Assembly: GCF_000003815.2 (NCBI RefSeq) | Contig: NC_049992.1 | Span: forward strand, 5,344,481 to 5,408,480 | Reading direction: 5' to 3' | Length of the DNA stretch: 64,000 bases | Origin: Branchiostoma floridae | Lineage: Eukaryota; Chordata; Leptocardii; Amphioxiformes; Branchiostomatidae | Shown here: piece by piece, positions 1,901 to 59,720 of the stretch | Layout of the letters: every line of letters starts with the position of its first letter | How positions within the stretch are numbered: position 1 is the stretch's first letter | Position numbers and translations under genes: made by a program | Notes under the pieces: model-generated | Database searches by the model: none | Seen by the model: only the letters and a program-made list of their open reading frames with translations | Told to the model about the DNA's origin: nothing

Positions 1901-1947
1901 GGTCTTAGTGGCAAGTTTGCAGATGTTGACGCAGTGGAGCACCAAAT

Positions 1948-5064: not shown

Positions 5065-5331
5065 AGGAGGAGGAACGCCCGCCTCACCTTTTTCTATAAA
5101 GTAGTCAACAATAATATTAACATAGACGCCAGCAATATTCTGAAGCCTGCCCAAGGGCGCACCCGGGGTAGTCACGACTTCAAATATCAACACATATTTG
5201 CACGCACCGATATCTACAAACATTCTTTTTTCCCACGCACAATTCCCGAGTGGAATGCCCTGCCTGGCACGGTTGTAAGCGCTCCCAACGTTGAGCACTT
5301 CCGTGCCAGGCAGGCGGCCTGCCCGCCCTAA

Positions 5332-7962: not shown

Positions 7963-10900
7963 ATGGAGAAACATATGAATCTTTGTTTGCACACAGATGA
8001 CCCTGAAGACGCCGGGCGACGTGCAACATCTCGTTCTTGTCTAGTCCGTGCTATCCTCATTGCTGTAATGATAACGGCCTTGTTTGGTGTTGGAGCTTGT
8101 TTGGCTGCGAACTTCATTGTCATACCGGACAACAAAGCAGACGTCTACCCGGTCAGTCAGGTAGAGAGAGAGGGGGGGGGGGGGGGGAGGGAGAGAGAGG
8201 GGGGAGAGGGAGAGAGAGGAGAGAGAGAGAGAGAGACAGGGGGTGGGATATAGCTGGAAAGACAATTCGAATATTTTTATTTATTCTAATACCTTTCCTA
8301 GCATTAATATGAGGGCGCTACCACTAATCAGATGATGTAACTTTATTTTCAATACTCCATTCAGCTTTACTTCATCACGTTTGTGTAACGTACAACACTG
8401 TTGAAGGGGATTTTAAGCCTGGTTGTCTTTTGTGTAAAGACTACAGCATACGCAACGTCGTCTGCAGCCGAGTCGTTTCCAGTCACGGACATCTCTCGAC
8501 CATCAGAGATGACAACTGTGCTGTGGGATGTCACCCCTGTGCTGTCAGGGGTCAAGGACATGCTGCCACATGTAACGACGCCGAAGCCAGATGTGACAGC
8601 TTTACCGCCAGCTTTGACAACTGTGCATGTGCAGTCTGCTGTCACATCTAGGCTGTCATGTGTCACAACAGTGTCATGGCAGTTTACAACTGCGCAGCCA
8701 GATGTGACAACTGTGAAGCCAGATGTGGCAACTGTGCAGCTAGATGTGACAACTTCACTGCCACATATGACAGCTGTGCAACCAGGTGTGGCAACTTCAC
8801 TGCCAGATGTGACAACTACACTGACACATGTGACAGCTGTGCAACCAGATGTCACAACTACACTGCCACATGTGACAACTCTGCAGCCAGATGCGCATGT
8901 GACAACCTCACTGCCTGAGATGACAACCGAACATGTAAAGGTGACTACTGTGTTCTATTTTGTATTGATTTTACCAAAATAATTCCCTTTAAATGACAAT
9001 GAAATTTATTGCATTAAAGGACATTTTCACCATCATGAAACTTTGACTTACTTTTTGGCGACGCCTCAGGGGCGGAGCCATTCTTATAGTACTGCGATTG
9101 AGTTGCCAGGAATACTAAATATTCCACGCACGCATTCCCTAGGGAATTCGTTTTTGGTAACATCTTGCGGGACCGGCGTTTGCATCTAACATTGGGAACT
9201 GTAATTTGAGTCTTTGGGCATAGCATAGGGCGTAGTTAATATACACAGTTGCAGCTTTTTGAAGATAGTTCAAACGAGTTTTTCTACATTGGCTACATGA
9301 TGCTGGCCTTTCTTTTGCATAGTCTTACTGTGTGATAGATGTGTTGTTTTGTTGTTCATTCGTGTGTTTTGTATCATGCGCATTTGTGTGACCTTTGCTT
9401 CATTTTATTGTATTAGTTTCTTTTCTTTTAGAACTATTTTGTGCTTTTTGTTTGTTTTCCTTTGGTGATATCGGCGCACGCCCCAATTCTTCCGTGACCG
9501 CGTTAGCCAGTGAATTTCTTCTGTAGCCTGAGCCGGGGGGAAGTTCACCTGTGGGTACAAAGAGACAAAATGACATACATGTAACAATGCCATTAACAGA
9601 TCCCATGTAACACATGTTCTTTGTAGCTATACCCATCCTCTGTATAAACAGAGTCATATTTCAGAGTACATTTACAAAATACAAAGGACCTCAATGTAAA
9701 AGGAAAAGTTCATAGAATGTTGTCAATTCATCAAGAAAAACGTTTTCAATGATACAAATGCTTTTCATCAGATTAACAGTTAACGACAAATACACTATTA
9801 TTTGTCTCCAGGTGCTCATATTTTGCACTATAAGACATTATCTTTCACATTGTCCCTGGCTGTGGGTCCTTTCTCTGTAACGAGTTCTTAGTCTACCTCA
9901 CCTTTATGCTCTGAGCAGTGAATTCTTTCTGAAGTCTGCGGGTGGCCATGCTACCTGTGCGAACAGAGATAGAATAGCCATAAATACATTGAAGCCATTT
10001 CTTGCCGTTTACCGAGAAACATATTGCTTTGCCTTTTATGAAAAACAACCGGTCGTTACTGGAATATCGATTCCGGTCTTGTCAAAAAGGAGAGAATATT
10101 ATATGAAGATAAGGCCAAAAAATCCGACGGAACATAACGCCAAGTAGCTAAAACTTCATGTAAACATAAATTACGTGCGTAGCTAAGTGGGCGTATGATA
10201 AGTACAGGTAGACCAGGGGTGTGTGTAAAACAAAAACTGTCCTAGGCCACTGTCCAAGGACAAATGGCGTACGTCGTTCAAAGTGCCTCGTGTAAATAGG
10301 GCCTATGTGACAGTAACCAGTAACAGCCAGCACAACGTACTTTCAAACAAATAAACACGTCATACAAGGATGTACAAGCATAAACGAACAAAGAAAAAAT
10401 CACTTTGAGAAACTGGCAACAAATCAAATCACAACAAGATCGGTACTAAGAAAAAAGAGGGAACAACAAATCATTATCATCACATAACGCATCAAACAAA
10501 AAAATAAATCCTCAAACTCTCATTTGATAAAATAACCAGAGCCTACAACTTACAAGATCAATGCCAACAACATGCCGACTACATTCTGATACGTGTACTG
10601 CAACTCTATAACACTTATCGCTATCTGTAACTTAAGATGAACCTTCACAATTGATACAGAAACTTAGTTGTATGCCCATACGTTATTATTTCCTTGAATG
10701 GTACATGTACCTGGTCGGAACGCGAAAACCCGTTTTTTAATGTAATAATAAAAAAAACAACCACCACCGCATTACCTCCCCACCAATGTGTTGTCGGTGG
10801 TCATATGGTGTTAGAGGCCCACCAGTCCATGACCCACGTGCACGTTCAGGGAGAGAAAGCAATAGTACCACAATTTGCATGCACGATAATTGTACTACAT

Positions 10901-13900
10901 ACTGTAAATCAACAGGCCAGTTCAAATCCTTCCAGATGACTCCGTCACATGGCCATAAAAAGAGTCGTGGTTTCTCGCCCGGCCTTTGTTGTGTCTCCTT
11001 TGAGTTTGTTGAAAAGAACGCGTTCATACCGTCTTTATCTAAAGCCCTGGTCACAAAGCGCTTACGATTTCATGCGATGGCATATTTCGCATATCGTACG
11101 ATGAGCAGTAAATCGCAGCAAAATCGTAAGCAAAATCAGCCATCGCAACGCATCGGATAATGTTCAAATTTTTTCCAGCGTCGAACGATTTCTCACTTGT
11201 GTCTCTTCTGATTAGCCGCCTGACCGCTTTTGCGCTTCTTTAACCAACAAAATGTGGAAATAGCTGTTGAATACCTTCATATGATATCTTTAACTGTAAA
11301 AATGAATTACAAGAGACCATAAAAATATGAGTATTACAAGCAAAAGTTCAAATCAAGCGCGAGTACTGGTATGGTTATCTCGGCCTGCTTGCCGGCTCTA
11401 CGAGTCAGGCTTTTTCGAAGATCGTATCATGATGTGCTATCAACGAAAAATGCCATCATACAAAAATCATATCATAAGCATTATATCATATATATTTCCG
11501 ACTCATAGAGCCTGTCATTCTGTTCGAGTTGTCCCTATGGTTATTACGATGATGGTAAACAAGTCAAGTCAAGTAAACTGACCCGAGACCGACGAGAGAT
11601 GAGTGATCTAATCATGAACTCACGTGCAGCAGTGTAGCGATCAAGCAATTGTCTGCATCACCTGTGCGTGACACTGAACAGTTGCGACTGATATAGTTTC
11701 CCTTTTCGTCAACATCGACAGCATCAGGGAAATAAAACTGAAACCATCACAACATGCTAAAAATTTATGAATCTTTAACCTCATCAGTAGAAAAACATGG
11801 CCGTAAAGAAGTTTGGTATGGGGGCAATAAAAATCGTACGACGATGGAGAAACTTTGAACATGTTCAAAATCCATTTCAGCTCTATTTTTCGTCATAGGA
11901 CGCCCCCCCCCCCCCGATTTACTATGATTTACTGCGATTGACACAGGTACGCTCTTATGACCTCATCGTACGATGCACTACGGGCTTTGTGACCACGGCG
12001 GCATATATTTAAACCATTGCTTCCGATTCTCCCCCGACTTACGACGCACCACGCTTATACCGCGCATCGCAAGGAATCGCAAGGAATAGCTTGTTTTGAT
12101 GTGAGGAAGAAGTTGTGTAGGTCACCACCCCCACCCCCAGCAGCTTGCTCTGCGGAGCATTGTTCCCTTAACAATTCTAAGGAGGATAGCAAAACAGAGA
12201 ACGACTTTCCATCATATTTAGCATGCAGGTGATTTAGATAAATGTATACGTAATAGCATGATGATTAAGCAAATTATGACTTAATTTGAATAATTAATGA
12301 CGAGAATCTGTAATTGGCTATTTGAACAGTGTATGCGATTCAACTGTGCGTTGTTCACCTGCAGCTATTGTACTAGGTACGACTTTGGTACTTTGATCCC
12401 GCGGCTACTGCTGGTGGAGCGCTTGTTGTAGTAAGACAGACGAAAAGCCTCGGCCGTGATGCGTTTGATATGACACGTCTTTGACAAATTTCAAACTGCA
12501 TCCTTCTCCGTATCTATCCATGCTAATTCAAAGCATTGATGTTGTTAGAGGCTCCTTCACCGGCCTCTCTGGGGGCCTACATACCTCGTCCAAGACTGTA
12601 TTACAGCGTGTAAATTGACCTCACCTTACAGCATGCATGACGTCAATAAAACATAATACAGATATTTTTTTATCATAGTTAAAAGACAGTGATGATTACT
12701 TGCACTTTAAGTCATGATTTCTAATGATGACAAGCAAATGAAGACTACAACACTTTTGAACAAAGTTATACGGTAACCAGTCCAGCTACTTACTTCGGTT
12801 AAGACTTCTCAATACCTACTTCAACGAATAAATCCAAACCGTTCCGCCATTACCTTCTTACTAATTCTCACGTCGCCAGTGTTTTAAAAAAAAAAAAACT
12901 TTTTAAGTGTGGGATCGATTGGGAAAATTAAGGGCGGCATTCCATATTCTTGACTTCTCATCAGCTTGCGCTATGTTTGTGTTGGCAGCCTTTCATACAC
13001 CATACCACAGAGATGAAACTGAGCAAGATGGAGGCGATTACAAGGCAGGAAATAACAGCGGCAATGAAAGGTGAGACTGTCGACTCACAATCAAGTTCTA
13101 TGGGCCTGTAGTATTAGGAGCATTATATATTAAGGTCTGTGTGGATTGATGTCAATTCTTTTTATTGGCAAAATATCATCTAAAGAGGGGGTTTCTGACA
13201 ACTGCTATTTTGTTTTTCTTATATTCTGTATATAATTATATTCACAGAAACCGCCTGCGAGGACCACACCTTGCGGCTGTCCTGTCCACCTGGGCAATCG
13301 CTTGTGATAGATGACGCCAACTATGGCCGTACGTCCCGCTCCGTGTGCCCCTGTACAGGCGACTGTGGGAAAACTTACTGTCGAGCAGCGAAGAGTCTGT
13401 CTATCGTATGGAGCAACTGTCAGGGCTTAGAGCAGTGCAACCTGGAAAGTAATCGTCTCTTTGGTGACCCCTGTAGCGGTGTACAGGTTACCTACCGCTG
13501 TTCCACAGGTTAGTACAGTTGTCAACATGTATGTATTTTCTGCCATATTTACGAGGGTTGCCGCCTGTAATCTCCAAGCAGATCCTACGGTAGCATATGA
13601 TAGTATCAAAACCTGGCAGAGGAGTGAAGCTGGTTTAGGAGTGTGTTTTGCTACTTGGCAAATGGACACCTCTTGGCTGACTACACTCCTTGGCCAGTTT
13701 GGTATCTTATGCCATTGTAGGATCTGCTTGGAGTTTAGCCCCCTCCCCTCCTTCGAGATAATTACTTTTCGGTGTATCATAGATTTGTGCGAACGCAGAT
13801 AGTACAGAATTTGCTTCTGAGATTGTGCCTCGCACAGCCTCTTCAAGTCTAGTATCCTGTGTTGATATACTGTAAATGCATTTAAGTTCGCGGGGATTCA

Positions 13901-16900
13901 ATTTCGCGGTAGCGGGAACAAGGGACTTTTCTTCTATGAGTCTTGTATTTAACTGATTTTGATTTGGTAGTGTTAAGCTTAATTTTGTGTTGATCAGATA
14001 GTTTATTACCCCTATGTCAGATTATTTCCATTTCATGTTATATGAATGGTTAAATTAATGTTGATTCATATACATTTTTGCAAAGCTCAGCTGTTGACAA
14101 CTGGAGGGCCCAACAAGATTATAAATTTAAAAAAAAACAACCACATCAGCTGAAACATAAATTCCTATCCCCTAGCCTGCAGTAAACCCTTTGGGATGAT
14201 GTCAGGAGCAATCCCTGATGACAGCATCACCGCATCCTCACACATGGGCCCTGATCACGAGCCTTACCGCGGGAGATTGAACGGAGAAGCTGGAGCGGCC
14301 TGGACCGCAAAAACTAACAACGTCGGGGAATGGATGCAGGTATAGGCGTCGTTAAAAAAAAGAAGAAGATTAAACCCTTCCCGCGCCTGGTGGCGCATAG
14401 GGCGGTGCCCATCTCTGTTTCCTTAGTCCTGGACCACATAACGCAATCACTACAGCAGGGGGCTAGTCCACTGGTAGTGGTGTGTGTTCAACTTCCATTC
14501 TCTTTCCCGAATGCTGAGTGCTAAGCAGAGAAAGCAGCAGGTACCATTTTTATAGTCTTTGGTATGACTCGGCCGGGGATCGAACTCACGACCTACCGAA
14601 TGCAAAGCGAACACTCTACCCACTAGGCCATTGCTTAGGCGTTGTGCTAATTCAAAACATGTTTGACAATGGGAAATTAGCTTCTATATCTAATTGTATA
14701 GAATTGATGGCCTTTAGAGCAAGACCTGCCAAAAAGCTGACACTCAAGCAACTAGATATAATTTTCAGACACATTCAGACATTTCAGATAACATCATTTT
14801 AAGATCTGGTAAAAAAAGTTTTATACCCTAACTATGAACTCGTACCCTGATTATGAATTTTATACCCAAATTATGAATCTGATTGTACCGATATTATGAA
14901 TTGTATACCATATGACTTCGCTGCTAAATTTCAATCTCAGTACATATCATCATGAAAGTTGATATACAATATGCTCTTATAGCATCTCAATTACGTTCTC
15001 TGATCAACCTCCAGATTGACTTGGGTGGCAAGGAGCGCGTTACTGGGACCATCATTGAGCGCATGCGCAACTACGTATACCACAATGGTGGCCGCGGGGT
15101 GACCTCCTACAAACTACGGTACAGTACAGAGGGGACTAACTGGAAACCGTATGCTGACACAGATGGCTCAGAAAAGGTTTCTTGGATGATACTTTTTTTT
15201 TATTTGTTGATTTGTGAAAGCATGATAAAACGATATCATGCATAGGCTGATATTGTGATCACATGCACATACATATTATACAGCACAAAAATTAACAAAT
15301 ATTAGGTAGAATAAAACAAAGCTGTACACTTTTCAAATAGTGGCAGCTGTAACATGCATGATAAGATCATAGTTTACAACTGGATGGAGACAGTGGCACA
15401 GCTGGAAGTATTACTTTTTGATAATTTTTTAGCACTTCCTAATTCAAACATATACGTTTACCTTCCAGGTCTTTCCAGGCAATGCCGACACGAACACCCC
15501 TGTGACCAATCTGTTGGACTACCCCATTGATGCCCGTTTTGTGCGTTTCGTGGTTCAGTCGTGGCAAGGCAGCATCAGCATGAGGGCGGAGGTTCTGGGC
15601 TGCAGTGAAAGTAAGTTTCTGTCATACCTTTCATGGTACAGGATGCCACAGTTTAACCTGCCCATTGATAATGCCATTTAAGTACAATAAAACAAGGTTG
15701 AATAAAGCTATCAACCCCAGTTCCAATCACAAAGTTTAACATTCTTCTCCAACAAGAAGTCGCAAGAGTCCTCTTCATAACTATTAAAAGAAAACAGGGA
15801 TTCCGGTTCTATTTTTATTTCGCTTATTTCCACAGATCTTGGTGTCTGTCAGCCTAACCCCTGTGCATATGCCGGGACATGTCTGGATCGTGCCGGCGAG
15901 TTTGTCTGTGTTTGCCGTTCTCCGTTAAAGGGAAAGAGCTGCAGCATCAGTAAGTTACAATTTAAACTAAGTAAAAAGAAATATTTATGTACGATTCTTG
16001 ATCTGTCTTCAACAAAGGAAGCGTTGCCTGCAGAATTTCGTAAATTTTACCTGCGTCTATAACTTACAAAGATAGTATCTACCAAACTCCACATATCCAC
16101 ATATACATGGCCTCATTTGGTCAATATTGACCATGGCAAAATCCTAATTGATATCAGCCCTACAGCGTCCTCTCTGGCTACACAGTCCTATACGAGAATG
16201 GCAGTCTCTGTCAGATAGGGCATATCTGCAAGCTGACTCAGGTCTGTTGCAGAGCTCTGATTATATAGTAACGCAAGTGTTTTCATAAAAGGCGCATTCT
16301 TCATGTGAGAATGTGAGAATGTTGTTGCCACCCAGAACTACGACGTCATTTCAAGAGGATGAAAATCGCTTCTTAAGACGCTGTATGTAAACGAATGACG
16401 AGAGATATGTTTTATCCCACCAGTTTGTAGCGTGGACGATCCCATCTTCACGTATGATAAATACCGCTGGGGGCTGCCCCGGCTGACGCGACCACCCTTC
16501 ATGTTTGAAGTAAAGGCCGAACGTGACGTCCACGTGGCGCTGTCCTCTCGCCAGGACCAGGACTTGGACGAGATATACGAAATTGTCATCGGTGGCTGGG
16601 ATAACATGCGATCTGTCATTCGCCGCAGCAGGCAAGGCTACAACCATGTTGATGTCCAAACACCCAGTAAGTATGTTTATTTGCATACGTTAAACGTGAT
16701 ACCGGTTTGCGCTTCTTAGTCTTGGTAGTACATCCTTCTCATGGTATTTCTTGTTCGTTCGTAGATATCGTCTCCAAGACTGAGTACAGAACCTTCTGGA
16801 TAATGTGGTCCTCAGACGGAACCATTGCAGTTGGCAGGGGTGATGAGAACTTGCCGTTTATGCTGTGGAGGGACCCTGACCCACTGCCCATCAACTATGC

Positions 16901-17524
16901 TGGACTCAAATCCGACTGGAGAAATGTTGACCGAAAGGTTGGACAGTGGAAACTATGCCGCACCGCTAGGCCTGACGGTAAGGTTGATACCATGTCAAAG
17001 TCTGAACATTTTTGCCTTATAGGTGGTCAAATATATCTTACATATGTGTTTTTAACATCTACCTAGCCAACATCATCATCATGTTATCATGAGTATCTCG
17101 AATGTGCAAGACTATCTCCCTCCATATCCAGTTACTCAAGCAGCTGGATATGAATTTGGAAACAGCCAGACTTTTCAGATGGCATCCAACATCTTCGTCA
17201 GTGACAGAAAACGGGGCCTTCGTATGGAAATTTCCTGAATCCAGTTGCTTGATTAACTGCTTTTTGGCGATAGTGAAGTTTGTCCCTGATTCTATGATCT
17301 AATTGATCACAGATGCTGAATGCCTTGTGGAGCCGGCCATGCGGCATGAGTGTGGTTGGGCGGGGATCACCTCTGACCAGTGCCGTTCGAAGGGGTGCTG
17401 CTACAATACCGCTACTACACGCCCAGAAATACCGTGGTGCTTCCACAGGGCTAAGAAAGGTGGGCTGTATTCTGAACAGAGGTCGGGCTACAGGGCTGCA
17501 GGAAAGCATGTTAAAGCACACTAA
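7963..17524 (+). CDS. Left composite lectin receptor: type II TM, SUEL lectin, F5/8C, EGF, FAMeT, trefoil
   Basis: Exons: 7963/7997-8151, 8440-8940, 12989-13070, 13248-13508, 14176-14339, 15015-15176, 15469-15610, 15836-15949, 16424-16666, 16765-16977, 17313-17524. All junctions are GT-AG and all phases match the inverted paralog at 34.5-22.7 kb. Starting at the ATG at 7963, directly after an in-frame TGA, gives 760 aa; 7997 is the acceptor position if an upstream exon is used. In order: short cytoplasmic tail, TM (RAILIAVMITALFGVGACLAA), Thr-rich heptad stalk, SUEL/galactose-binding lectin (YGR, CRAAKSL, FGDPC), discoidin F5/8C over three exons, EGF-like, FAMeT-type (Methyltransf_FA) domain over two exons, and P-type trefoil (CGWAGIT..C..GCC). 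It is probably a cell-surface glycan-binding protein. The trefoil runs on for about 21 residues where the paralog stops. An upstream alternative first exon cannot be excluded. Confidence 0.75.
8161..8239. repeat. (GA)n/(G)n microsatellite
   Basis: Purine run of GA dinucleotides with a G-rich core, just after the TM exon donor of the left receptor gene. The right paralog has a (GA)n run at the corresponding place, also just after its TM exon. Confidence 0.9.
8440..8940 (+). repeat. Coding 21-bp minisatellite: Thr-rich heptads of the receptor stalk
   Basis: This 501-nt exon is mostly tandem 7-residue units of the form VTT(x)(x)PD or VTT(x)LPH, rich in Thr and Pro and free of Cys. Such stretches act as O-glycosylated stalks. 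The paralogous exon (28773-28468) has 306 nt, so the stalks differ by 65 residues. Confidence 0.8.
9044..9953 (-). other. Possible small minus-strand exons inside left receptor intron 2
   Basis: Three exon-like pieces. 9953-9901: acceptor CACAG, then AGC ATGG start context and MATRRLQKEFTAQSIK, ending at donor GTGAGG. A piece starting at 9546 after CCCACAG stays open in the same phase for about 47 codons and ends at an AATAAA. 9206-9045 is open between a TTACAG acceptor and a GTAAGT donor. The first two could form a protein of about 63 residues. I recognise no family, so they may be chance or gene debris. Confidence 0.2.
11045..11998. mobile_element. Candidate non-autonomous DNA transposon
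   Basis: Ends are imperfect inverted repeats: CCCTGGTCACAAAGC at 11045 and the reverse complement of CCGTGGTCACAAAGC at 11982-11998. Further mirrored similarity (ATCGTACGATGA) lies inside each end. No transposase frame is present. The element lies in intron 2 of the left receptor gene and helps explain why this intron is 4 kb against 182 bp in the paralog. Confidence 0.5.
13572..13733. mobile_element. MITE of the CTCCAAGCAGA family, copy 1
   Basis: Terminal inverted repeat CTCCAAGCAGATCCTAC at 13572, with its exact reverse complement ending at 13733. The interior is partly self-complementary. It lies in the intron after the SUEL exon of the left receptor gene. Confidence 0.7.
14342..14637 (-). 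mobile_element. tRNA-derived SINE
   Basis: Read from 14637 downward, a tRNA-like head carries an A box (TGGCCTAGTGGGTAGAG) and a B box (GAGTTCGATCC) at tRNA-like spacing. It is followed by an unrelated body and a CTT/T-rich tail. Flanks TAGGCGTCGT and TAGGCGTTGT look like a target-site duplication. The element sits within a few bases of the donor of the first F5/8C exon of the left receptor gene. Confidence 0.7.
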
Positions 17525-22690: not shown

Positions 22691-25600
22691 CTAAGCACTG
22701 TGGAAGCACCACGGTATTCCTCCACTTGTAGAACTATCGAAGCAGCATCCCTTCTGACGGCACTGATCCGGAGTGATCCCCACCCAACCACAGTCCTTCC
22801 GCATGGCCGGTGTCACAAGGCACTCAACGTCTGTCAAAAATCAGATCACAAATATTTTAGGGACAAACTTTTTTTCTATTTGTCATTGTTAATCAACTGT
22901 GTGCAATATACGTAAATACTGTGTGGAATATTCGCTGATGTGTTAACATCGTTTTAAATAACTGTCTTCGATTTTAATAAATGTAACACGACAGGGCAAT
23001 TCAGGGCCATCGTCCTGCCATTCTGTACCGTGTAAAGTGAGAAGAAGAAATAAACCATTATATATTTGCTTTTGAACAGACGGAGACAATGTGGCACTGC
23101 ACTCAAGTTAGTAACTTATATTAACCGTGCCACATACACAGTACGGACAGAAGGTAAAGGTAGTATTTTTCTTTAACCTCCCCGACCGAAGTCATATAAC
23201 CATTTTTATACGTGGATGAATTGAGGAAAGTCGTGTTAAGTGCCATTTTACAGCCATATTGCAGCCACTTCTTATCGTCACACTTTGTCTTACGCCTACA
23301 TTGGCACCTGCTAACAACAGGGATGATTGTTTTAGATTGGACCCGTTCTAGAGTATGCTAGTAGTAAAGTATCATTTTTCATTTTGCACATCGATGTAAG
23401 AGGATTACTAACTAGTTCCACAGTGGCAAAAATGTCCAGTCTTTGACTTCTATTTAATTAAGGAGGTCCTTGGTTCAACCTAACCTTCAGGCCGAGCGGC
23501 GCGGCATAGATCCCACCAGCCACGGTTTTTCCAGGCCGTGTTGAGTCCGGCATAGTTGATGGGCAGCGGGTTGGGGTCCCTCCACTGCACAAACGGCAGG
23601 GTCTCCCCACCCCTGCCAACTGCAATGGTTCCGTCTGAAGACCACGTTATCCAGAAGGCTCTGTACTCATTCTTGGAGAGGAGGTCTACAGAGGAACAAG
23701 AAATAACATGAGAAGCATGTACTACCAAGTCTGGTCTGAAGCACAAACCGGTATCACTTTCAACGACTAGCAAGGTATTATAATAGTGGTTCAGTGAGTG
23801 AGTGAGTGAGTGAGTGAGTGAGTGAGTGAGTGAGTGAGTGAGTGAGTGAGTGAGTGAGTGAGTGAGTGAGTGAGTGAGTGAGAGACTGAGTGAGTGACTG
23901 AGTGACTGCGTGAATGAGTGAGTGACTGCGCGACTGAGTGGGCGGGTGAGTGAGTAATCATACTTACCGGGTATTTGGACATCAGCATGTTCGAGGCCTT
24001 GCTTGCTGCGGCGAATGACAGATCGCATGTTGTACCAGCCACCGATGACAATTTCGTACATCGCGTCCAAGTCCCGGTCCTGGGAGGACAGCGCCACGTG
24101 GACGTCACGTTCGGCCTTCACATCAAACATGAAGGGGGGTCCCGTCAGCCTGGGCAGACCCCAGCGGTACGTCGTTTCGCAATGGTGACAGGCATACGTG
24201 TGAATGGAATCACAAACTGTAAGGATATAAACATTCATTTCGTCATTCGTTTACATAGACTTATGTAGTGATTTTTATCATAATCTTTAAGCGACGTCTA
24301 GTTCAGCACGAATAGCAACAGCCTTCTCGCCGAGTAGAATTTATAGACTGCCTCTAATACAGCTCAATTGTATTGTACAGCTACAATGAGCCTTTTATCG
24401 AATTTCAAACCACTTGCATTACGGTTTGACCAGTGACACGTGGAGTCAGTAAGATACTAGATTTGTACAAGTTATAAACGCAGATAGAATTTATGACATT
24501 TTGCAGGTATCATTTTCTTTGTTGAGGAGAGGTCATCAGAACCGTATAGATACAAATTTGATTCATTTCTTCGTGACTTACTGATGCTGCAGTTCTTTCC
24601 CTTTAACGGAGGACGGCAAAGACAGACAAACTCGCCCGCACGGTCCAGACATGTCCCTTCATATGCACAGGGGTTAGGCTGACAGGCACCATGATCTGAG
24701 GTAAATAGCGAAAGAACAATAATACAGGAATCCCTGTTTCTTTGAATGGTTAAAAAGAAGACACTTGTGGCTTCCTGGTGGAGAAGAATGTTAATGATTG
24801 GTGTAAGTGATATTATCAAACCTTTGTTTTATTGTACTTACCAAGAAGCAAGATGAAGTCAAATGTACTTGTTAAAAAGTAAGAGTAGATTGGACGTTTA
24901 TGATAATTGCGCATATGAATGTTTATGAGTGCTACCATTGTTAGATGTTTTTAGTTGTTACCATGTGACCTGTACTTAGCCCAGTGGTGCAGAAATGTGC
25001 CAGAAAGGTCTTCATTCATTTAATGGGATTTCCTATGGACAGGTCAAACTGTGGCATCTGTAAGTTATGACAGAAACTTGCTTTCACTACAGCCCAGAAA
25101 TGGCGGTTATTCGTATCGGCTATATAGATACAGATACACATACAGATTGTGTGCACAGGTTTTCAACGTTGGGGCACGCGGGAACAGGCGGCTCGTGGAA
25201 ACCCGTGCCCACGGTGAGGACGCCTCAGGTTTTACCATCGTGCACAGCGGTGGGAGCTCGTGAAAATTTGCCTTTTCGTGCATTGGCATCCTCCTACGCC
25301 CGGTCCCTAACGGCTAGCTAACAGCCTATTGGGGACTTTAGACACGACTGTGGTCCTAATCGTGGACAGTAACATAAGCTGGGAAGGAGTTTAGCCGGCA
25401 GAGGAGTAACGGGTCAATTTACTCATCTGCCGGCTAAACTCCTTCCCCAGCTTATGTTACTGCTTTATGCCACGGGGGGATTATGCTTGGAGATTATGTG
25501 GTCCCTCTGCGTAGGGGAATGGTGCAGTGTTAGAAACTACAAGGTATTACACTTTCACAGAAACTTACTTCCACTGCAGCCCAGAACCTCCGCCCTCATA

Positions 25601-28600
25601 CTGATGCTGCCTCGCCACGACTGGACCACGAAACGCACATAACGGGTATCGATGGGGTAGTCCAACAGATTGGTCACAGGGGTGTTCGTGTCGGCATTGC
25701 CTGGAAAAACCTGGAAGGTAAACGTATAATGCTAGTTAACCTTTATCCGTGGGGTAACCTATATCCGTTGTTCAAAAACAAGGTATTTAGGGATATTAAG
25801 TCGACGGACCGTAGTTTTAAACTACCGTATTTTGAAATTCGAAAATATTCAAGGAACTACCGATATCTTCTGTCGACTTGGTATCCATAAGTAATTAATA
25901 ACAACGGATATAGTCAACCCCGCGGATAAAGGTGAACTAGCGTTATATATAATTTAGAAAGTTCTAAAATGTAATTTCATCTGTGGTACTGTCTTCATCT
26001 TCAAGCTATTAGCTTTTCATGTATGTTCCAGCTGATAGCTTGTAGGCTATAAACATTAAGATATGTTTATTTATTCTTTGCTTTGTTAACAGTGTAAAAA
26101 AAGAAAAATAACAAGCTATATCATCACAGAAACCTTTTCTGAGCCATCGATGTCTGCATATGGTTTCCAGTTAGTCCCATCTGCGCTGTACCGTAGTTTG
26201 TAGGAGGTCACCCCACGGCCATTATTGTGGTAGCCGCCCTGAATGGTGGTTCCGGTGACGCGCTCGGTACCACCCAAATCAACCTGAAGGTTTATTATAG
26301 AACTCGCATTAGATAAGAATATATTGTTTAAGAATATATTGTCACTATGAGTATACCATGTACTTGCAATTAGCCCTCGGGTACGAACTTGCAAATAAAC
26401 TTCTTCGTTGTGAGCATAGTTTCGTTAAGACATTTACGAGATTGAAATTTAGAAGTGAATTAATAGTTAGGGTATAAAATTAATGATATGGGAAAAATAA
26501 AATTCATAATTTGTATATAAAATTCTTGATCAGGGTACGAATTCATAGTTAGGGTATAAAACCTATTTTATTATCATATCTCTTTAGTGTGCCTGACGAA
26601 ATGATGCTACCTGAAAAGTCTAAATGTTGCACAAATCATATCCAGTTTCTAGATTAACTTCTTTCTGGCTCTAGAGGTCACCCGTTCTAAACAATTAGAT
26701 CTTAAATTTCCGTTATCAAACTCATTTTGAATAAACACAAACATACCTGCATCCATTGCCCGACGTTGTTAGTTTTTGCGGTCCAGGCCGCTCCAGCTTC
26801 TCCATTCAATCTCCCGCGGTAAGGCTCGTGATCAGGGCCCATGTGCGAGGAGGCGGTGATGCCGTCATCAGGGATTGCTCCGGATGTCATCCCGAATGGT
26901 TTGCTACAGGCTAGGGGGAAAGTAAAATCGACTTAAGGTGCCTTGAGATGTGCTTTTAATTTACAATCTTGTTGGTCCCTTCAGTTGTCAACAACTGATT
27001 GCTATCGGAATCCTGCAAATATGTATATAAAATGAACATAAATTTAATCATTCTTATAACATAAAACACACATGATCGAACATAGGGGTAATGAATTATC
27101 TGATCGACACAAAATAAGCTTAACACTACCAAATCAAAATCAATCAATTGAAGAACTCATCACAGCAATAACCGTATAAATAGAACGCAACAAAACATAA
27201 AGAAATTACATGTTACGTTACACAACATTACAAATATGCAAAATAGATTAACATCAGTACCATATGAACGGGCATCTGTCGGAAAATACAACATGTATAC
27301 TAACTTTTAGACGTTCAACCAAATATATCAACACAGGGTACGAGATTAGGGGAGCTGCACGATACAAAATCTCTGAACGAAATTCTGTACTATCTAGTAT
27401 CTGCTTACGTACAAAATTATGATACACCGAAATGTGGTTATCACAAAAATGGGAGGGGGGGGGGCAACCATCGTAAAATATGACTTAAAATATATAACGT
27501 TACATATTGAAAAATGTTCTTACCTGATGTACAGCGGTAGGTAACCTGTAGGTACTTTCCAGTCCCACGACAGGGGTCACCAAACACACGAATACTTGCG
27601 CCCACGGTGCACTGCTGTAAGCCCTGACAGTTGCTCCACACGATGGACAGACTCTTCGCCGCTCGACAGTTCTCATTATTACAGGCGCACTTACAGGGGC
27701 ACACGGAGCTGGACGTCCGGCCGAAGTTGGCGTCATCGATCACTAGCCATTGTCCGATTGGGCATGACAGCCGCATGGTGTTGTCCTCACAGGCGGTTTC
27801 TGTATAGGCGTCGGAGGCATAGTTTTCAATGTCAATTCAACGTATCAGTTCCTTTAAGTAACTCCCCCTCTAGGAGTAGGAGGTAACATTAATATTTGGT
27901 ATGTATTTTTAAGCGGAGCACCACTCACCAAAATTGTATTTAGTTGTTCACAGAAAAGAAAATTTTCATTTTTGGGTCTTTATATCTCTCACTCTCTCTC
28001 TCTCTTTCTCACACACACTCTCTCTCTCTCACTCTCTCTTATATATTCTTGTGTGTTACTCATTTTAGCATTCTAGATTCAATTCAGATTAATATTTTGC
28101 CAATGAAAGGGAATTGGGATCAACCCCCACAAAGCGTACATAAAGCTCCCGTTTCTCCTGATATTACTGGCCCATACATGTACAGCTGGCTTGTGAGGCG
28201 TACCTTTCATTGTCGCTGTTACTTCCTGCCTTGTAACCGCCTCCATCTTGTTCAGTTTCATCTCTGTGGTATGGTGTATGAAAGGCTGCCAACAGAAACA
28301 TAGCGCAAGCTGATGGGAATTCAAGAATATGGAATATCGCCTTCAATTTTCGTAATCAATCCTACTCTAATGAAAAACTTAAACCTCCATTTTCATGGTG
28401 ATGTAAAGGCAATCTAAAGGGACTTTCATTTGGGTCAAAGCAGTATGAAATATGACACAGTAGTCACCTTCAAATGTTTGGTTGACAACTCGGACAGTGA
28501 GGTTGTCACATGTGTCAATTTTGTTGTCACATGTGGCAGTGTAGTTGTCACATGTGGCAGTGTAGTTGTCACATCTGGCTGCGAGGTTGTTACCTGCGAT

Positions 28601-29067
28601 GACACAGACTGCACAGTTGTCATATTTGGCAGTAAAGTTATCACATCTGGGTTCAGCGTTGTTACCTCTGACAGCACAGCGGTGACATCAGACACTGCAG
28701 TTGTAACCCCTGACATGCCAGAAGGTGGAGGGGTGTGCGTGTTCGGGAACAGCCACGTGGTGTATGCTGTAGTCTTTACACGAAAGTATTTTACAAGTTA
28801 ACCATAATCAAAATTCCTTACAACGTGGCCACTACCCCTCAGCCAATCAGAGCTCTTCAATTACTGTGTTTATATCCCAATAGTGCAGAAAAGTGTGGTA
28901 CTATGAAAAATGTGTAGTACTATGAACTCATTTTCATAAAATAGAACCACGTATTCTTAATAGTACCACACGTTTTCTGCACCACTGTCTCGCTCTTACA
29001 TCTCTGGTGACCCACCAGATCGTATTTTCTTTTTCCAGTGCATTTATCGGCCTGCAAAGGTCATTCA

Positions 29068-29146
<79 letters not shown>

Positions 29147-32100
29147 GATAGAGAGAGAGAGAGAGAGAGAGGAAGGAAGAGACAGAAAACTGTAAGAATT
29201 GTAGTCTTTAAATCTTTATCTGACTGACCGGGTAGACTTCTGCCTTGTTGTCCGACGTGTCAGCGAAGAAAATGGCAAAGCAAGCTCCTGCACCAAACAA
29301 GGCTGACATTACAACAAAAACGACGACAACACGTTTTAGGCAGGAACGGAAGGTCACCCGTCGCTCTGCATCTTCAGGGTCATCTGTGTGAAAATAAACA
29401 AAGGTTCAAACAAACAAAAACGAAAATAAGTATTCAGATCTTTCTGAGTTTCTCTATTTGACACCTTGTGAGGAAACAACACTCGTGCGAATTACCACGT
29501 ACAGTGATTTTGATGGCTAGAAAAAAACAAAATATTGTGATGCCTTAAATGTAAATGAGACAACTGCGCAATATGATGATATTAAGGTGATAACAATACT
29601 ATTTATGCAACGTACTGCGTAATGTCCCCCTGCATGACCGCTTTAAATGTCCATCTTCAGCCTATAATTTGTCTTTTCACCCAAAAATGAATGATTCTAC
29701 AATTTACATCACGCTACAACTTAACGTTTGGTGAAACGCGTCTTCTATGATATATTAGAATCAGTTCAAGAGTGCTTTTAGATCGGTACAATTTGAAAAT
29801 AAAGACCAAAGTTTCCCCGATACACCCAGTTTTTTTTTGTCATAGGCGACTAGGGTTTCAATTTCTTTTATCTTTCAGGAACAACATGTTTAATATTGTA
29901 TCACAATCTTCAAAAGATAACCAAGCCGAAATTAGTCTCTAGCGTATGGCGTAATTGGAAATGTTAGAAATTCAACGGAGGTGCTGCTATGCACATTTTG
30001 GATGTATTGTTGAAAAAGGTTGCAAAACATCATGGTAAAGTTGACTATAGCCATAACAAAATTCAGACTTTCCTCTCAGACTAATTATTCATTTTCATAT
30101 GATATCCCAGAGTGGTTGTTAGTAAAATCTTTTCTAACGCGGTAAAACTCCAAAGCATAACGTTACACATTTCGCTGACGTATTATCATTGTGCTGTTGA
30201 ATTTCTAGTAATGTAGGCTTGATTTACATGATATCATTTAAGCTTCTTTAAAAACACTTATTTTGTTTTTAAGTATGTCAAATTTTATCCAACTGTGTCT
30301 CGTATCTAATAGTTTGCAGTTTGCACTTAAAAAGCAAGAAAGGATCGTTCGTTGCTTATTTGCACCGCTATTTATTGGCCACATCTGATGGAGTTGTGAT
30401 CTAAGGTGTATTGTTACATAGACTGAATAGAAGCAATTACTTGAAACTTATTCAACAATCATCAAGATCATAATTTCCACCGCTTCTTGAATAATACTGA
30501 CATGAAAAAGTATAATGATTGCATAGCAATGTCACTGGTATCATAGTGCTGTACAATGGTATAAAGACACCGAAATGTTACGAAGAGAAGATACCTTTGT
30601 TGTCTTCATCTTGTTGACCACTACGTTCAGAATTGTGGTACACGTGCTTTTCAGGGTCGCTATTAATGTGGTTAGCAGCATAGTTGTCAGCTATTCTTTC
30701 TCTAGCTGCAGAAAAAACAGCAGTATCGTTATATGTTTTACAATATCTATAATGATAATAGGTTGTTTATTGATTGCTGTTTCATCACTCACTGAATTCA
30801 TCGCAGCGCCGTGAGGCGCTAAATTTCGTATTTAGGCATTAAAAACATAATGAAATAATGAGAATAATAACAGGTAAAACATTTATAATCACATCGCACA
30901 ATGCAGCTCTTGACTAATTAACAAAATATCTTTATCTATAAGCTACCCACTACCTACTGAGTATATACGTACATATGTACATATATGTTTTATTAATATA
31001 GAGATAGAAACTCATACCATTGTTGATTACAGATGATTTCATAACTATCCTGGATGTTGGGAGATTTGTCGTTTATTGTTTCCAATTGCGTAAAATTTTA
31101 TTTAATCGGAATAAGCATTAATATTATTTGTTTAACTGGCATCTGATTCAATTATTTAGATACGTAGTTACTAATAACTAGCGAATGAGGAAGACCATAG
31201 CAATGTCACTGACATAACAATTTTGTAAACTTATATAAAATTGTTAACATACAAAATTTAAGATAAGACAAGATACCTTTGTCTTCAGCCTGCCAACCAC
31301 AAGTTTCAGTATTGTCATACACGTGGTTGTTAGGATCGCCATTGTCGTCAGTAGTAGCTTTCAATTCTCTAGCTGCAGCGAAAACGGTTATACTCACAGT
31401 TACACGAAGTCGATTCTTAAAAAAAACAAACAGCAACAGCAGAGTCCTCCCCAGAGGATGGAATAACGGAGGCCCCCCACATTGTATGGGAGTCATATAT
31501 TATGACTAGCCCAGCTCCAACATACTACTTTTGAAATGTAGTGTGTTTCTTCCCTATTTTCTTGGTTAGTTTTGCTAAAATTCATGAAAATTCACAGATT
31601 TTTTGTGCCAAGTGGCATCACTTTTCCAGTCGGCATTGTCTGCAAAAACTTGTGAATGGGCATGATGAAAACAATAGTCATTTTGCCACTTCACAACTAA
31701 GGAATCACTATAACATGTTATACTTGTAGTATTTGACACACTTTGTCAATGCAAAATGAACCCATATTCATGAAAGCGCAGCGCGTTGGTTCGAGTTATT
31801 TTTGCCAGCCCCTCCACTATACTAAAAAATTCTGGGGAGAACCCTGAATAGTAACAGTTACACGCAATTACAAAGGTCTTCAGGTCGTAAATCCGATACT
31901 CCTATCTATGCACCTTTGACCATGTTTATTTGATTAACATTAACGGTCTTCGCTTGACGAGACACGATCAAAAGACTGCATGTATATTAATGTTTGATAG
32001 TCATATTTTGGAAATAAAATTAAAGTAACCTTAACATTTTCCCCTTCCACCTCAAAATTAAAAAAAAATACAAAATGGCGAATTTGCGGTACAGTTGCGA

Positions 32101-34525
32101 ATTCGGCCCCCCTCCAGATGATATCCTCTGTACAACCCAGAACAGATCATCGAATTGAGCATGCGAAGAAAAAAAGGTGGACATATTATATGAAGAAAAG
32201 TTGCCTTCATTATGGAATCTAAGTGGTCAGGAAGTTTGTCATTTATTTTTCTATTTATTCATTTACTTCTGTATTCTTTCACCAGGGTAAGCTACCATCA
32301 GTGACTAGCACTGCTTTTCAAGGAAGCCCTGGGTACACGTACGCACTATATTTACATTGCACAACATATCGTCAAACACAAAATCATGTCTTTACTCATG
32401 TACATATCCGTGCCAAATCATGAAGAGTTGGAGGTCAGAACAGATGACTGAACACGCAGAGTATGACATAATAAACAATAGATTCTTCATTTTTGTTCTT
32501 TCATATCTTTTCTTCGACCTTGGAATCGACAATGTCATTCTATGACATCAGTATTCGTTTCCCGGCACATTTTATCAGTCATGGCGTATGTTTGGTCATT
32601 TTTAAGCTGCTTTGTACGATTTGCAGTGAAACGGTTGAATTTTTGAAACGGCCAAAAAGTGATGCACGCGCGGATGTCATCCATATAACGTTAGATTATA
32701 ACCAATTCAACATCAGCTTACGTTGTTCTATTCTAATTGCTTTGTAGACTTTAATACGAGAAGGATGGACATCGAATAAGAAAAATAGTATTTGGTACAA
32801 ACTAGAAGGTCACGAAAGAAAATGAACCTAATGTTTTCAATGAGCCATATTAGTTATTACTTTATTTCCATGAAAAACATATGCACGATTAAGGGGTGTT
32901 GTGAAATAGAAGAAAAACACCAAACCCCTAATTTAATCTTCTGTGCAGCTATTGAAACATGCGCGAGGTTTCGATGTTTGATATATGAGAGAGAAAAAGC
33001 AATCAAATCACGATGCATGAAAAATGATATAGCAGCCAATCGCGACTGATTCTTGCTGAATATTGATATCAGGTCATCGCTCCTTAACACTTTTCATGCT
33101 CGTGTCTACAATATGGCTTTAAAAACCTCATAGGAGACGTTAAAATCGGTATTTTATCATGTAAAATGTACAAATACACAAAGTATCTGATAAAAATATC
33201 TTCAACTGTACGCACGTTAGGTTGGTTATCTGCCATAACCAGAACAATAACGAGTGATTTCTGCCTTTTGTTCCAACATTTTCAAAACCTTTTCACCATC
33301 TAAAATGTATAACCTGTGAATCGATTTCTTATATTGTTGACTTTGTACTAAATTAATGAATACATTCTGGAGTATTCCAAGGAAATGTTCAACCTCCTTG
33401 CGTATTCTAATGTGTTAGAAATATTTGCAACGTAGATAATTTGTATTAGTTTCTAAACTGTTCTGTCATGGATTGATATTTTTTCTTAAATATTAGAACA
33501 TTCAGTAAATTGGTCATTGGGTTGAAAATGAAGCAATTCCCAGATCCCTGCAAAGTTTATCTGTGTGCCATAAACAGACGGCTCGCTACAAAAGAGCCAC
33601 AAGTATCTAGTTGAAAATTAAAAACACATCAAGCAAGACTATCCCACCTTCTTTTATGTGGAAAATTATCCAAATCTAAACACAAATTGCTCTGACAGTA
33701 CTCTTATCAGATAGATATAACTCCCTTGGAAATCAGTTTGTAGGGACTACACTGAAAAATTAATAAACAAAAAAACATAAGCTGCCCGATATGTGTTTGC
33801 CATCAAATTATCATTGATATCAGTAACATACCTTTATCTTGTTCAGAAGAAGAGGGTCCAGTGTAGCCCCCTTCATCACTTCGGCCTTTTAGATTTTGCT
33901 TGGGAGGAATCGGCTTACAAATCTCGTATCCGGACGTCTTTGGGGCTGAATAGAGCACGGCATTGGGCTCTTCTTGATATTTGGCTTGAACAGCTTTGCT
34001 TTCTGCCTGTTGTGCTGATTCATTTTGATCTGTTTTGTCTCCCTGCTTGTAGAGCTTTGACGCAATCGTGTTCCCATCCGGACCAGTTTCGTCAGCAGAC
34101 GTTTTCCGAGCTAGCTGAGGAGAATCCCTGTCACCTGTCGTGTCGCCGTAAAGTTTTGACGTAGACTTGAGTCCCTCTTGACCTGTATCGTCATTACGTA
34201 TTTTTCTAGCCTGTCGAGGCGATTCTTTTTTATCAACAATGTCTCCATAGAGCCGTGACATCAACTTGGAATTTTTGTGTCTTGCGCGCTGGTTGTCATG
34301 TTGTCCAGCAGCTCCGACTGTTGTGTCCCTGTACAATGGTGAAGTCTTAGTGGTGGATTTTTGTTGGTCAGGTAGTCCATCTCCGTTTCCATCCTGACCA
34401 GTGTTGGGAAGGACGGGCACCTCGGCATTAGGTTCGATACAGTCGGTAGCTAACATCTCACACTCTACGGTGTTCTGGTACTGGTGCTGTATTTCCTGCA
34501 CTGCATTCTCCTGTTTCGTCTGCAT
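22691..34525 (-). CDS. Right composite lectin receptor, 14 exons, 959 aa
   Basis: Exons (high to low): 34525-33832, 31372-31277, 30705-30595, 29383-29229, 28773-28468, 28285-28204, 27799-27524, 26910-26747, 26283-26134, 25710-25569, 24695-24582, 24216-23968, 23685-23485, 22830-22691. They sum to 960 codons with every phase consistent. The ATG at 34525 follows an in-frame TAG. Residues 1-318: cytoplasmic head with LY-centred 33-residue repeats (Tyr 65, 93, 126, 159, 192) and VYDN/VYHN motifs (Tyr 250, 286) in two duplicated 1-1 phase exons. TM about 319-341; Thr-rich heptad stalk to 454; SUEL lectin about 485-573; F5/8C 574-725; EGF-like 726-763 (QPNPCAYEGTCLDRAG); FAMeT-type domain about 778-905; trefoil 917-958 ending CFHSA. 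With no signal peptide and an N-terminal TM it should be type II. Likely a glycan-binding surface receptor with signalling tail; ligand unknown. Confidence 0.82.
23793..23960. repeat. (GTGA)n tetranucleotide microsatellite
   Basis: Long run of GTGA with a diverged edge (GACTGAGTGAGT), within about 10 bp of the donor at 23967 of the first FAMeT exon in the right receptor gene. It makes the exon appear to read on into a Ser/His/Thr/Leu repeat. Confidence 0.95.
25368..25492. mobile_element. Hairpin MITE related to the CTCCAAGCA family
   Basis: Arms AGTAACATAAGCTGGG...GGAGTTTAGCCGGCAGA and their reverse complement enclose a short loop near 25410. The right edge reads CTCCAAGCATAATCC on the minus strand, like the ends of the copies at 13572 and 19187. 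Intronic in the right receptor gene. Confidence 0.65.
26340..26402 (-). repeat. Dispersed repeat, GAAGTTTATTTGCAAGTTC family, copy 1
   Basis: On the minus strand: GAAGTTTATTTGCAAGTTCG, then TGCCCGAGGGCTAATTGCAA with small variations. Copies recur at 45857-45906 and 63062-63121 on the plus strand. Confidence 0.7.
27988..28041. repeat. (TC)n/(AC)n microsatellite
   Basis: Pyrimidine-rich CT repeats with a short ACACAC interruption, in the intron before the SUEL exon of the right receptor gene. Confidence 0.85.
28883..28982. mobile_element. Small hairpin MITE
   Basis: GTGCAGAAAAGTGTGGTACTA at the left is mirrored by its near-perfect reverse complement ending at 28982. It lies in the intron between the TM and stalk exons of the right receptor gene. 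Confidence 0.6.
29070..29172. repeat. (GA)n microsatellite
   Basis: About 100 bp of GA repeats just after the TM exon of the right receptor gene, mirroring the run at 8161-8239 in the left gene. Confidence 0.9.
32490..32716 (+). repeat. Dispersed repeat, copy in right-receptor intron 1
   Basis: Shares CTTTCA(T/C)ATCTT, GACATCAG/GGCATCAG, AGCTGCTTTG and CGCGGATGTCATCCATATAA in the same order with 41193-41412. A minus-strand partial copy lies near 40535-40575 and a weaker one near 52160-52215. Probably a SINE or MITE family; ends not defined. Confidence 0.6.
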
Positions 34526-58605: not shown

Positions 58606-58772
58606 AGATGACGTAACCTAGCCTGAAAAGTGATGAGATGTTGCATAGGAACGTTTTACCAACATGCCATCCTGATGTGTCATTTTTGTTGGGTCATGCT
58701 TTTATGTGATTTGTGACGAATTATTCTGAACCAAGATGTAACTTCTATTTCTTACACAGCCATTCGACCATC

Positions 58773-59720
58773 ATGGAAAACAGGCCTGTGATTACTCAAG
58801 GCTTAGTTGAGAATGCGGAAGAACTAGGACGATGCTTCAACTTGGCGACCAACAGCATGGAGATACAGATTCAGTCGAACACTTGTGGTCGAACGCACCT
58901 GGAATCGCACAGTACAGAAGCGGGGGATCAGACAAGGCCTGAGAATCTCCACAAGTGTGAGGAGTGCAGTAGGCACTTCACTAAGCAGTGCCTTCTGAAG
59001 AGACACATGCAGCGTGTACACACCAAAGAGAAACCGTTCCATTGCGATCATGAGGGGTGTGACGAGCAGTTCCGTCTCTTTGTTGAGCTAAAGAGACACA
59101 TGCGGGTTCACGCCAAACCGTTCCAGTGTCAGGAGTGTGATAAGCAGTTCCTTAGGTTAGGTCTGCTAAAAAAGCACATGGTATCTCACAGCGACCAGAC
59201 ACCGTTCCAGTGCGATCATCATGGGTGTGGCAAGCAGTTTCGTCGGAAGGGCGAGCTAAAGAAACACCTGCTAACTCATACCGACGTTAAACCGTATCAG
59301 TGTGAGGTATGTGGTAAACAGTCACGTTTGATGGGTGATCTAAAGAAACACATGCTGACTCACACCGGTGAGAAACCGCATCGCTGCGAGGAGTGCGGGA
59401 AGCAGTTCACCCAGACAGCTAGTCTAAAGAAGCACTTGAGGTCTCACACAGGCGAGAAACCGTTTCAATGTGAGAAGTGTGGCATGCAGTTTACCCAGAT
59501 GGGGTCTCTGAAAGTCCACGCGCGGACTCACACAGATGAGAAGCCATACATGTGTGAGACGTGTGGCAAGCGGTGCAGGCAACTGAGTAACCTGAAGGAA
59601 CACATGATGACTCACACAGGTGAGAAACCTTACATCTGCCAGGTGTGTGGCAGGCAGGTGAGACACATGTCTGCGCTGAAGAAACACATCATGAGGAATC
59701 ACGCCAGCAAACAGGTATAG
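58773..59720 (+). CDS. C2H2 zinc-finger protein, nine fingers, 315 aa
   Basis: The frame is open from 58713, but an acceptor TTCTTACACAG at 58751-58761 shows that the exon starts at 58762. The first ATG inside it (58773, context ACCATCATGG) is the likely start: MENRPVITQG. Residues 1-60 carry no domain. From about residue 62 come nine C2H2 fingers to the end, most with TGEKP/THTDEKP-like linkers and an LKKH core. Fingers 2 and 4 have the longer CDHxGC spacing. The coding region lies in one exon. It is likely a DNA-binding nuclear protein; targets are unknown. The neighbour on the other strand (DDAH) converges on it. Confidence 0.85.
   Translation: MENRPVITQGLVENAEELGRCFNLATNSMEIQIQSNTCGRTHLESHSTEAGDQTRPENLHKCEECSRHFTKQCLLKRHMQRVHTKEKPFHCDHEGCDEQFRLFVELKRHMRVHAKPFQCQECDKQFLRLGLLKKHMVSHSDQTPFQCDHHGCGKQFRRKGELKKHLLTHTDVKPYQCEVCGKQSRLMGDLKKHMLTHTGEKPHRCEECGKQFTQTASLKKHLRSHTGEKPFQCEKCGMQFTQMGSLKVHARTHTDEKPYMCETCGKRCRQLSNLKEHMMTHTGEKPYICQVCGRQVRHMSALKKHIMRNHASKQV

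Follow-up and report, generated by a model that had tools for sequence, protein, structure and literature searches.

A predicted cytoplasmic head rich in tyrosines recurs in a family of candidate receptors of Branchiostoma floridae

Introduction

A lectin gene of the lancelet Branchiostoma floridae raises the question whether the tail that the protein would hold inside the cell has been built up from tyrosine sites on which SH2 proteins dock, or whether these tyrosines are there for other reasons. The gene lies within a stretch of 64,000 nucleotides, referred to here as the window (C14:5344481-5408480). The original prediction, made from the DNA letters, had taken the former view, based on LY pairs that recur in the first exon and on two small exons adding VYDN and VYHN.

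Several tyrosine motifs provide the frame for this question: the ITAM consists of two Yxx[LI] placed 6-12 residues apart, the ITIM reads [SIVL]xYxx[ILV] and the ITSM TxYxx[VI], and Src kinases like G/E and D after the tyrosine. As to the neighbouring positions, I, L or V at -1 is strongly favoured by Lck and c-Src, which also have a moderate preference for a bulky hydrophobic residue at +3, whereas ZAP-70 favours an acidic one at -1 (PMC5889215). The pYxN motif is recognised by the SH2 domain of GRB2 (PMC10968029). In Branchiostoma belcheri a homologue of Lck is described and tyrosine phosphorylation in the gut increases upon immune stimulation (PMC8211107), and a Branchiostoma homologue of SLP76 has been studied (PMC5431462). 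The Grb2 homologue of B. belcheri co-precipitates a receptor that has no cytoplasmic tail (PMC10199209) and therefore sets no precedent for a docking tail.

Results

Gene model of a predicted type II lectin receptor

Rebuilt by splicing, the minus-strand gene comprises 14 exons with GT-AG junctions and consistent phases (Table 1). Exon 1 and the two 1-1 phase exons lie exactly where the original prediction had placed them, and their junctions with the transmembrane (TM) exon are likewise GT-AG and in phase. The model encodes a type II membrane protein made of a 300-residue cytoplasmic head, a TM segment, a Thr-rich stalk and SUEL lectin, F5/8C, EGF, Methyltransf_FA and trefoil domains, the last of these outside the coordinates that the original prediction had given. 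It counts 959 residues with exon 14, or 914 with the frame stop at 23480 if the exon-13 donor is unused; the Pfam domains of exons 7-13 were matched on the 914-residue model.

Table 1. Exons of the lectin-receptor gene and of its inverted paralogue, in window positions unless a contig is named.
Feature	Position	Strand	Content
Exon 1	33832..34525	(-)	ATG at 34525; cytoplasmic head residues 1-231; phase-1 donor at 33832
Exon 1 tyrosines			YQNT at 16; SxLY at 65, 93, 126, 159; also Tyr 183, 192, 200, 221
Cassette exon 2	31277..31372	(-)	96 bp, phase 1-1, VYDN; counterparts in + paralogue and paralogue A
Cassette exon 3	30595..30705	(-)	111 bp, phase 1-1, VYHN; + paralogue counterpart has VYDN
Exon 4	29229..29383	(-)	basic juxtamembrane stub and single TM at about residues 319-340, acting as type II signal anchor
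Exon 5	28468..28773	(-)	Thr-rich extracellular stalk
Exon 6	28204..28285	(-)	short linker PFIHHTTEMKLNKMEAVTRQEVTATMK
Exon 7	27524..27799	(-)	SUEL (galactose/rhamnose-binding) lectin domain; Pfam PF02140 E 3e-18; PDB 5h4s, 2zx0
Exon 8	26747..26910	(-)	F5/8 type C part 1; exons 8-10 together match Pfam PF00754 at E 1e-31
Exon 9	26134..26283	(-)	F5/8 type C part 2
Exon 10	25569..25710	(-)	F5/8 type C part 3
Exon 11	24582..24695	(-)	EGF-like; Pfam PF00008 21.6 bits vs cut-off 21.5
Exon 12	23968..24216	(-)	Methyltransf_FA part 1; Pfam PF12248 E 4e-38 over exons 12-13
Exon 13	23485..23685	(-)	Methyltransf_FA part 2; phase-1 donor GTTAGG; if unused, TAG at 23482-23480
Exon 14	22691..22830	(-)	trefoil (P-type) domain and stop; Pfam PF00088 E 9e-16
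+ paralogue	7997..16977	(+)	inverted copy in the same window
+ paralogue TM exon	7997-8151	(+)	
+ paralogue stalk	8440-8940	(+)	
+ paralogue linker	12989-13070	(+)	
+ paralogue SUEL	13248-13508	(+)	
+ paralogue F5/8C	14176-15610	(+)	
+ paralogue EGF	15836-15949	(+)	
+ paralogue Methyltransf_FA	16424-16977	(+)	
+ paralogue trefoil-coding stretch	about 17310 on	(+)	
+ paralogue head and cassettes	about C14:5339226-5341166		left of window; head at 5339226-5339817

The open frame of exon 1 would arise by chance with P about 4e-7 (from intron stop density), and an in-frame stop is found 39 nt upstream of the ATG. The SUEL domain scores 66.4 bits with PF02140, compared to a curated cut-off of 31.4. 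Hydropathy peaks at 2.51 at residue 320, the highest window within the first 290 residues being 0.42, and basic residues are found on the N-side of the single TM segment (flank RRVTFRSCLKR); the protein is predicted to be a type II membrane receptor, an orientation read from hydropathy. The head is hydrophilic (Uversky H 0.345, under the boundary of 0.428) and, low in hydrophobicity, is probably disordered. No match to it was found in Pfam at E 1 or in the PDB at E 10, and of eight pattern matches in viral contigs 0 were confirmed as relatives.

As the model rests on sequence and erroneous predictions have been flagged for lancelet proteomes (PMC6071037), it could be argued that the head exons stem from another transcript and were wrongly joined to the lectin. 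We consider this highly improbable, since the same exon order is found in the inverted paralogue and, on another contig, in paralogue A, the TM exon requires a preceding phase-1 exon (it matches the TM exons of both paralogues), and the kinase gene upstream appears to have a stop of its own. The head as the tail of that receptor kinase was rejected, as the stop is in the apparent last exon of the kinase, read by eye. The lectin-receptor gene model appears to hold.

The kinase (35970-43780 (-)) consists of Ig-domain and tyrosine-kinase exons, taken as one gene, directly upstream of the head; its catalytic loop reads HGDLAARN, HRDLAARN being usual, and DFG is present. Elsewhere in the window, 1930-5340 (+) holds frames of a non-LTR retrotransposon with the reverse transcriptase FADD at about 4525 and, at 2140-2166 near the N-terminus of a long retrotransposon frame, GDVELNPGP, which we take to be a 2A-like peptide. 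A C2H2 zinc-finger frame of 336 residues is found at 58710-59720 (+) and a dimethylarginine dimethylaminohydrolase exon at 63217-63660 (-).

LY modules of the head

Upon translation LY falls at residues 64-65, 92-93, 125-126, 158-159 and 191-192, exactly as predicted, and these five pairs in exon 1 compare with 0.48 expected (0 of 20,000 shuffles reached five). The last four are indeed 33 residues apart (P about 3e-4 for four of five being equally spaced at random positions), and self-alignment of the head at lag 33 scores 93, as opposed to a maximum of 58 in 1,000 shuffles. Yet the strong match is confined to residues 78-126 on 111-159, so that the periodicity is largely one duplication, clear for the units of 93 and 126, and is not conserved in other heads. 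Similarly, the SxLYGD-like context ascribed to these four applies to 93, 126 and 159, of which the first two are the sole exact LYGD and the third has its GD shifted by two residues (LYKQGD), but not to 192 (AVLYSAP), which is no unit copy and whose distance of 33 residues looks coincidental; residue 65 (SPLYRDTT) fits instead, being a copy of the motif at different spacing. We therefore regard the periodicity as incidental and S-x-[LI]-Y, after which G/E and D come in most cases, as the recurring feature, one whose copy number and spacing vary between heads.

Of the 12 tyrosines of the head, four belong to S-x-L-Y modules, three (16, 250 and 286) to Y-x-N sites and five to neither. An I, L or V precedes 7 of the 12 (P 8e-5), or 3 of 8 when copies are collapsed (P 0.045). 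The LY codons differ synonymously across modules (TTG TAC, CTC TAT, CTT TAC, CTC TAC), and dN/dS between the two main units is 0.35, a rough ratio given a dS of 1.36.

Tyrosine cassettes

The two 1-1 exons had been described as duplicated, and cassettes 2 and 3 are mutual copies that include flanking intron (score 76, maximum 27 in 300 shuffles). Their VYDN and VYHN fit the pYxN motif at the sequence level; to these sites (YDNT at 250 and YHNS at 286) we add YQNT at 16, which the original prediction had missed. The three YxN lie barely above what is expected by chance for 12 tyrosines (P 0.044), and the two YxxP do not exceed it (P 0.13). Extra cassette copies were also sought in the introns that flank the cassettes and in the stretch from the kinase to exon 1, and none scored above shuffles.

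With both cassettes in phase 1-1, single Y-x-N sites could be included or skipped by splicing with the frame unchanged, and translation of the joins confirmed that they are in frame with both cassettes omitted and with the first alone kept. Of the 11 remaining donors of exons 1-13, 9 have G at +5, whereas both cassette donors read GTATCT and are devoid of it, which is a weak hint of optional splicing; the corresponding donors of the + paralogue are GTATCT for the first cassette and GTATGT for the second.

The inverted paralogue

The inverted copy of the gene, on the plus strand of the window, might be taken as headless, as DNA homology upstream of its TM exon ends at 30295/6924 and no cassettes are found in 5300-7000 or 1-1930. 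This was rejected, since a genome search placed its head, and tblastn both its cassettes, left of the window; the first cassette is 93 nt long, in phase 1-1, and the second, counted by hand, 108 nt. The exon-1 products of this nearest paralogue and of the gene under study share 148 of 197 aligned residues (75%), and the + copy keeps 5 of the 8 aligned tyrosines, namely Tyr16, 65, 93, 159 and 183. All five fall in residues 1-188 (5/5 tyrosines, 123/154 residues identical); beyond, none is kept (0/3, 25/43 identical), Tyr192, 200 and 221 being lost, and the unit carrying 126 is absent. Between these two genes, then, tyrosines as a class fare no better than the remaining residues, and the head dN/dS of 0.54 indicates loose constraint.

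Two further observations concern the ectodomains. An F5/8C exon with its flanks, 25557-25728 (-), is 95% identical to 15451-15622 (+), other longer matches being 71-82% identical, a pattern suggestive of recent gene conversion. In the + paralogue, the SUEL domain (13248-13508) is without the KYL stretch that follows the DPC motif in the gene under study and in 5h4s, and its sugar binding may accordingly differ.

A family of tyrosine heads

Three head sequences served as queries (E cut-offs 0.001, 0.1 and 0.01) and, with overlaps merged, revealed no fewer than 13 head loci, which are spread over five contigs (C14 and C10 with three each, C9 with two, C15 with four and C19 with one) and each have E < 0.001 in at least one search; an in-frame TAG interrupts two of the 13, A' and C9:1949186. 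Eight heads were counted (the gene under study, the + paralogue, A, A' up to its TAG, B, C, D and E), three C15 loci, the C19 locus and C9:1949186 being outside the counts. The eight hold 29 Sx[LI]Y sites, against a shuffle mean of 0.43 and a maximum of 5 in 2,000 shuffles, and I, L or V at -1 in 40 of 61 tyrosines against 7.5 expected, counts that overstate independence given shared descent, duplicated modules and LYGD-rich queries. Successive sites in the seven other heads are 15 to 48 residues apart, a distance of 33 being found once, in E. Weaker matches to the TM exon were detected on C16, C18 and at C14:9.3M.

The order of head, cassette and TM exon is common to the + copy, A, D and E. 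The more distant paralogue A (C10, 2.398 Mb) has RVLYGD, SHLYGD and SQLYGD, after which IYSV and GYETM stand where the gene under study has 192 and 200, followed by a 105-nt 1-1 cassette (VYEN), TM exon, stalk, linker, SUEL and F5/8C parts 1-2, the fetched flank ending after the second F5/8C part. The YETM at the place of Tyr200 is YxxM, presumably a PI3-kinase type site. As head B likewise has LYSV and EYET at these places, Tyr192 and Tyr200 look ancestral and lost in the + copy. Heads D (C9) and E (C15) carry SHLYGD, SRIYED and SRLYED or SRLYGN, and both are followed on the same strand, within about 11 kb, by a cassette with a tyrosine (HYED in D, HYEN in E), then by a TM exon and by a domain of fibrinogen type, an order read from sequence in lieu of a full splice model. 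The E cassette is a 1-1 exon of 144 nt; the D cassette, 139 nt as cut, falls out of phase 1-1, and D may accordingly be damaged or spliced in another way. Near D (C9, 1.944-1.974 Mb), histone-like frames lie downstream of the head, and the TAG-bearing C9:1949186 is a second head-like stretch. The flanks of B, C and A' (about 30 kb, that of B holding 1,673 N) were compared with the domains of the gene under study and of D, and gave no match to the former or to the fibrinogen-type domain of the latter at E 0.02.

Across seven cassettes, N at +2 is kept in five: YDN and YHN here, YVD (N lost) and YDN in the + copy, YEN in A and in E, and YED in D. Tyrosine is present in all seven, a count that is biased as the cassettes of the + copy, A and D were found by similarity to, or by, the Tyr motif; those of D and E, which match each other, were equated with ours by position, without a significant sequence match.

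Based on these data we read the tyrosine head as a gene-family trait, and the claim of a built-up tyrosine tail on a lectin is borne out inasmuch as modules and cassettes recur in paralogues ahead of a TM exon, after which comes a lectin domain or one of fibrinogen type; conservation of the tyrosines was compared here among paralogues of the same genome. It is conceivable that the head is a disordered spacer under loose constraint, growing and shrinking as repeats duplicate, the tyrosines being passengers with no signalling role. The varying module number (four here, three in the + copy and five, spaced by 27, in C) would agree with such a spacer, as would the head dN/dS and the three tyrosines lost in the + copy. 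We nevertheless find it unlikely, as S-x-[LI]-Y recurs on several contigs, despite the diverged spacers between its copies, and before two unrelated ectodomains, and as the module codons differ synonymously.

The similarity between modules runs past the tyrosine (LYGDKTDHKES, LYGDTTGDRDS, LYKQGDKTDQNES), and so the module could be a phosphotyrosine-independent short linear motif, for example its D..T/D..ES part or a site of Ser/Thr phosphorylation, acting as a scaffold or trafficking signal. Among paralogues, however, D and E change after the tyrosine (SRIYED, SGIYVCG, SRLYGN), and what stays is S, the aliphatic residue and Y, which renders this explanation less likely still than a passive spacer.

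Signalling motifs in the head

ITAM, ITIM and ITSM were each tried and rejected: there is one Yxx[ILV] among the 12 tyrosines, Y93, which has R at -2, and T at -2 precedes none of the 12. The same Y93 (GDI) would suit a role of the head in endocytosis, as a carrier of AP-2 sorting signals (Y-x-x-bulky hydrophobic), but a single Yxx[ILV] in 12 tyrosines is at chance level (P 0.74, F and M at +3 uncounted), and of the explanations considered we give this one the slimmest chance.

The residue at -1 agrees with Src-family substrates (aliphatic in 7/12 and 40/61 tyrosines, respectively, of this head and of the eight), and the residue at +3 does not, the modules having T, I, T and G there, of which Y93 alone fits. 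The LYGD modules are not of GRB2 type; their aliphatic -1 is in line with Src-family kinase substrates. For the cassettes, YxN does occur in the predicted cytoplasmic part and a GRB2 (pYxN) reading is plausible, as a motif match alone.

Discussion

Having weighed these explanations, we propose, with a probability of roughly 0.6, that the disordered head is phosphorylated by Src-family kinases and docks SH2 adaptors such as GRB2. The lectin part would cluster on its ligand, upon which Src-family kinases would phosphorylate the modules, by virtue of their aliphatic -1 residue, and the Y-x-N sites. Phospho-Y-x-N would recruit GRB2-like SH2 proteins and the modules other SH2 adaptors, repeated sites would give avidity, and splicing of the cassettes may add or drop single Y-x-N docking sites.

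Lectin receptors with cytoplasmic tyrosine motifs are known, and the receptor proposed here appears to be a variant of these. CD72 has a GRB2 site, Dectin-1 and CLEC-2 share the type II orientation, and adaptors of the LAT type have many tyrosines in a disordered tail with several YxN sites of GRB2 type; LAT itself, which is no lectin, is a substrate of ZAP-70. The present head resembles LAT-type adaptors in its many tyrosines and YxN sites and differs from them in the aliphatic -1, ZAP-70 preferring an acidic residue (PMC5889215). CD72-like type II C-type lectin receptors are alike in orientation, outside lectin and cytoplasmic tyrosine motifs, two ITIMs of CD72 recruiting SHP-1 (PMC6018527); unlike the C-type lectin CD72, the predicted receptor has a SUEL/F5-8C/EGF/FA/trefoil ectodomain and a 300-residue head with repeated SxLY that does not match the ITIM consensus. 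Dectin-1 and CLEC-2, as hemITAM receptors, also signal from a lectin via a cytoplasmic tyrosine, but the hemITAM is one YXXL (PMC9287148), whereas our head has no YxxL and many tyrosines with aliphatic -1. A lancelet receptor that invites comparison is BbLcLRR, the Lck-associated LRR receptor of amphioxus, a membrane protein in which Lck phosphorylates several tyrosines (PMC8211107); it differs in its LRR ectodomain, its ITIM or ITIM-like motifs and its recruitment of SHIP1 and SHP1/2. The SUEL domain resembles those of PDB 5h4s, an L-rhamnose-binding lectin (E 5e-58), and 2zx0, CSL3 (E 1e-24), a likeness that covers SUEL alone, as both chains are SUEL domains only. Among the open-licence literature matches listed, none describes the receptor or such heads, which is weak evidence of absence.

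More tentatively, and with the odds against it, we suggest that the head exon and its 1-1 Tyr cassette together form a signalling unit that can be transferred, present at no fewer than 13 loci (a minimum) and joined to unrelated recognition domains (SUEL, fibrinogen type). Its bearers might be immunoreceptors of the lineage's own, docking at multiple sites, driven by Src kinases and without ITAM, ITIM or Syk-type motifs, among which paralogue pairs would have the same ectodomain and different docking sites. The family would bear on the question of how repeated phosphotyrosine docking originated before vertebrate immunoreceptors. As homologues of Lck, Grb2 and SLP76 have been studied in lancelets, the idea is directly testable there, and, if true, it would represent a separate solution in which one cytoplasmic docking head is reused by different recognition domains.
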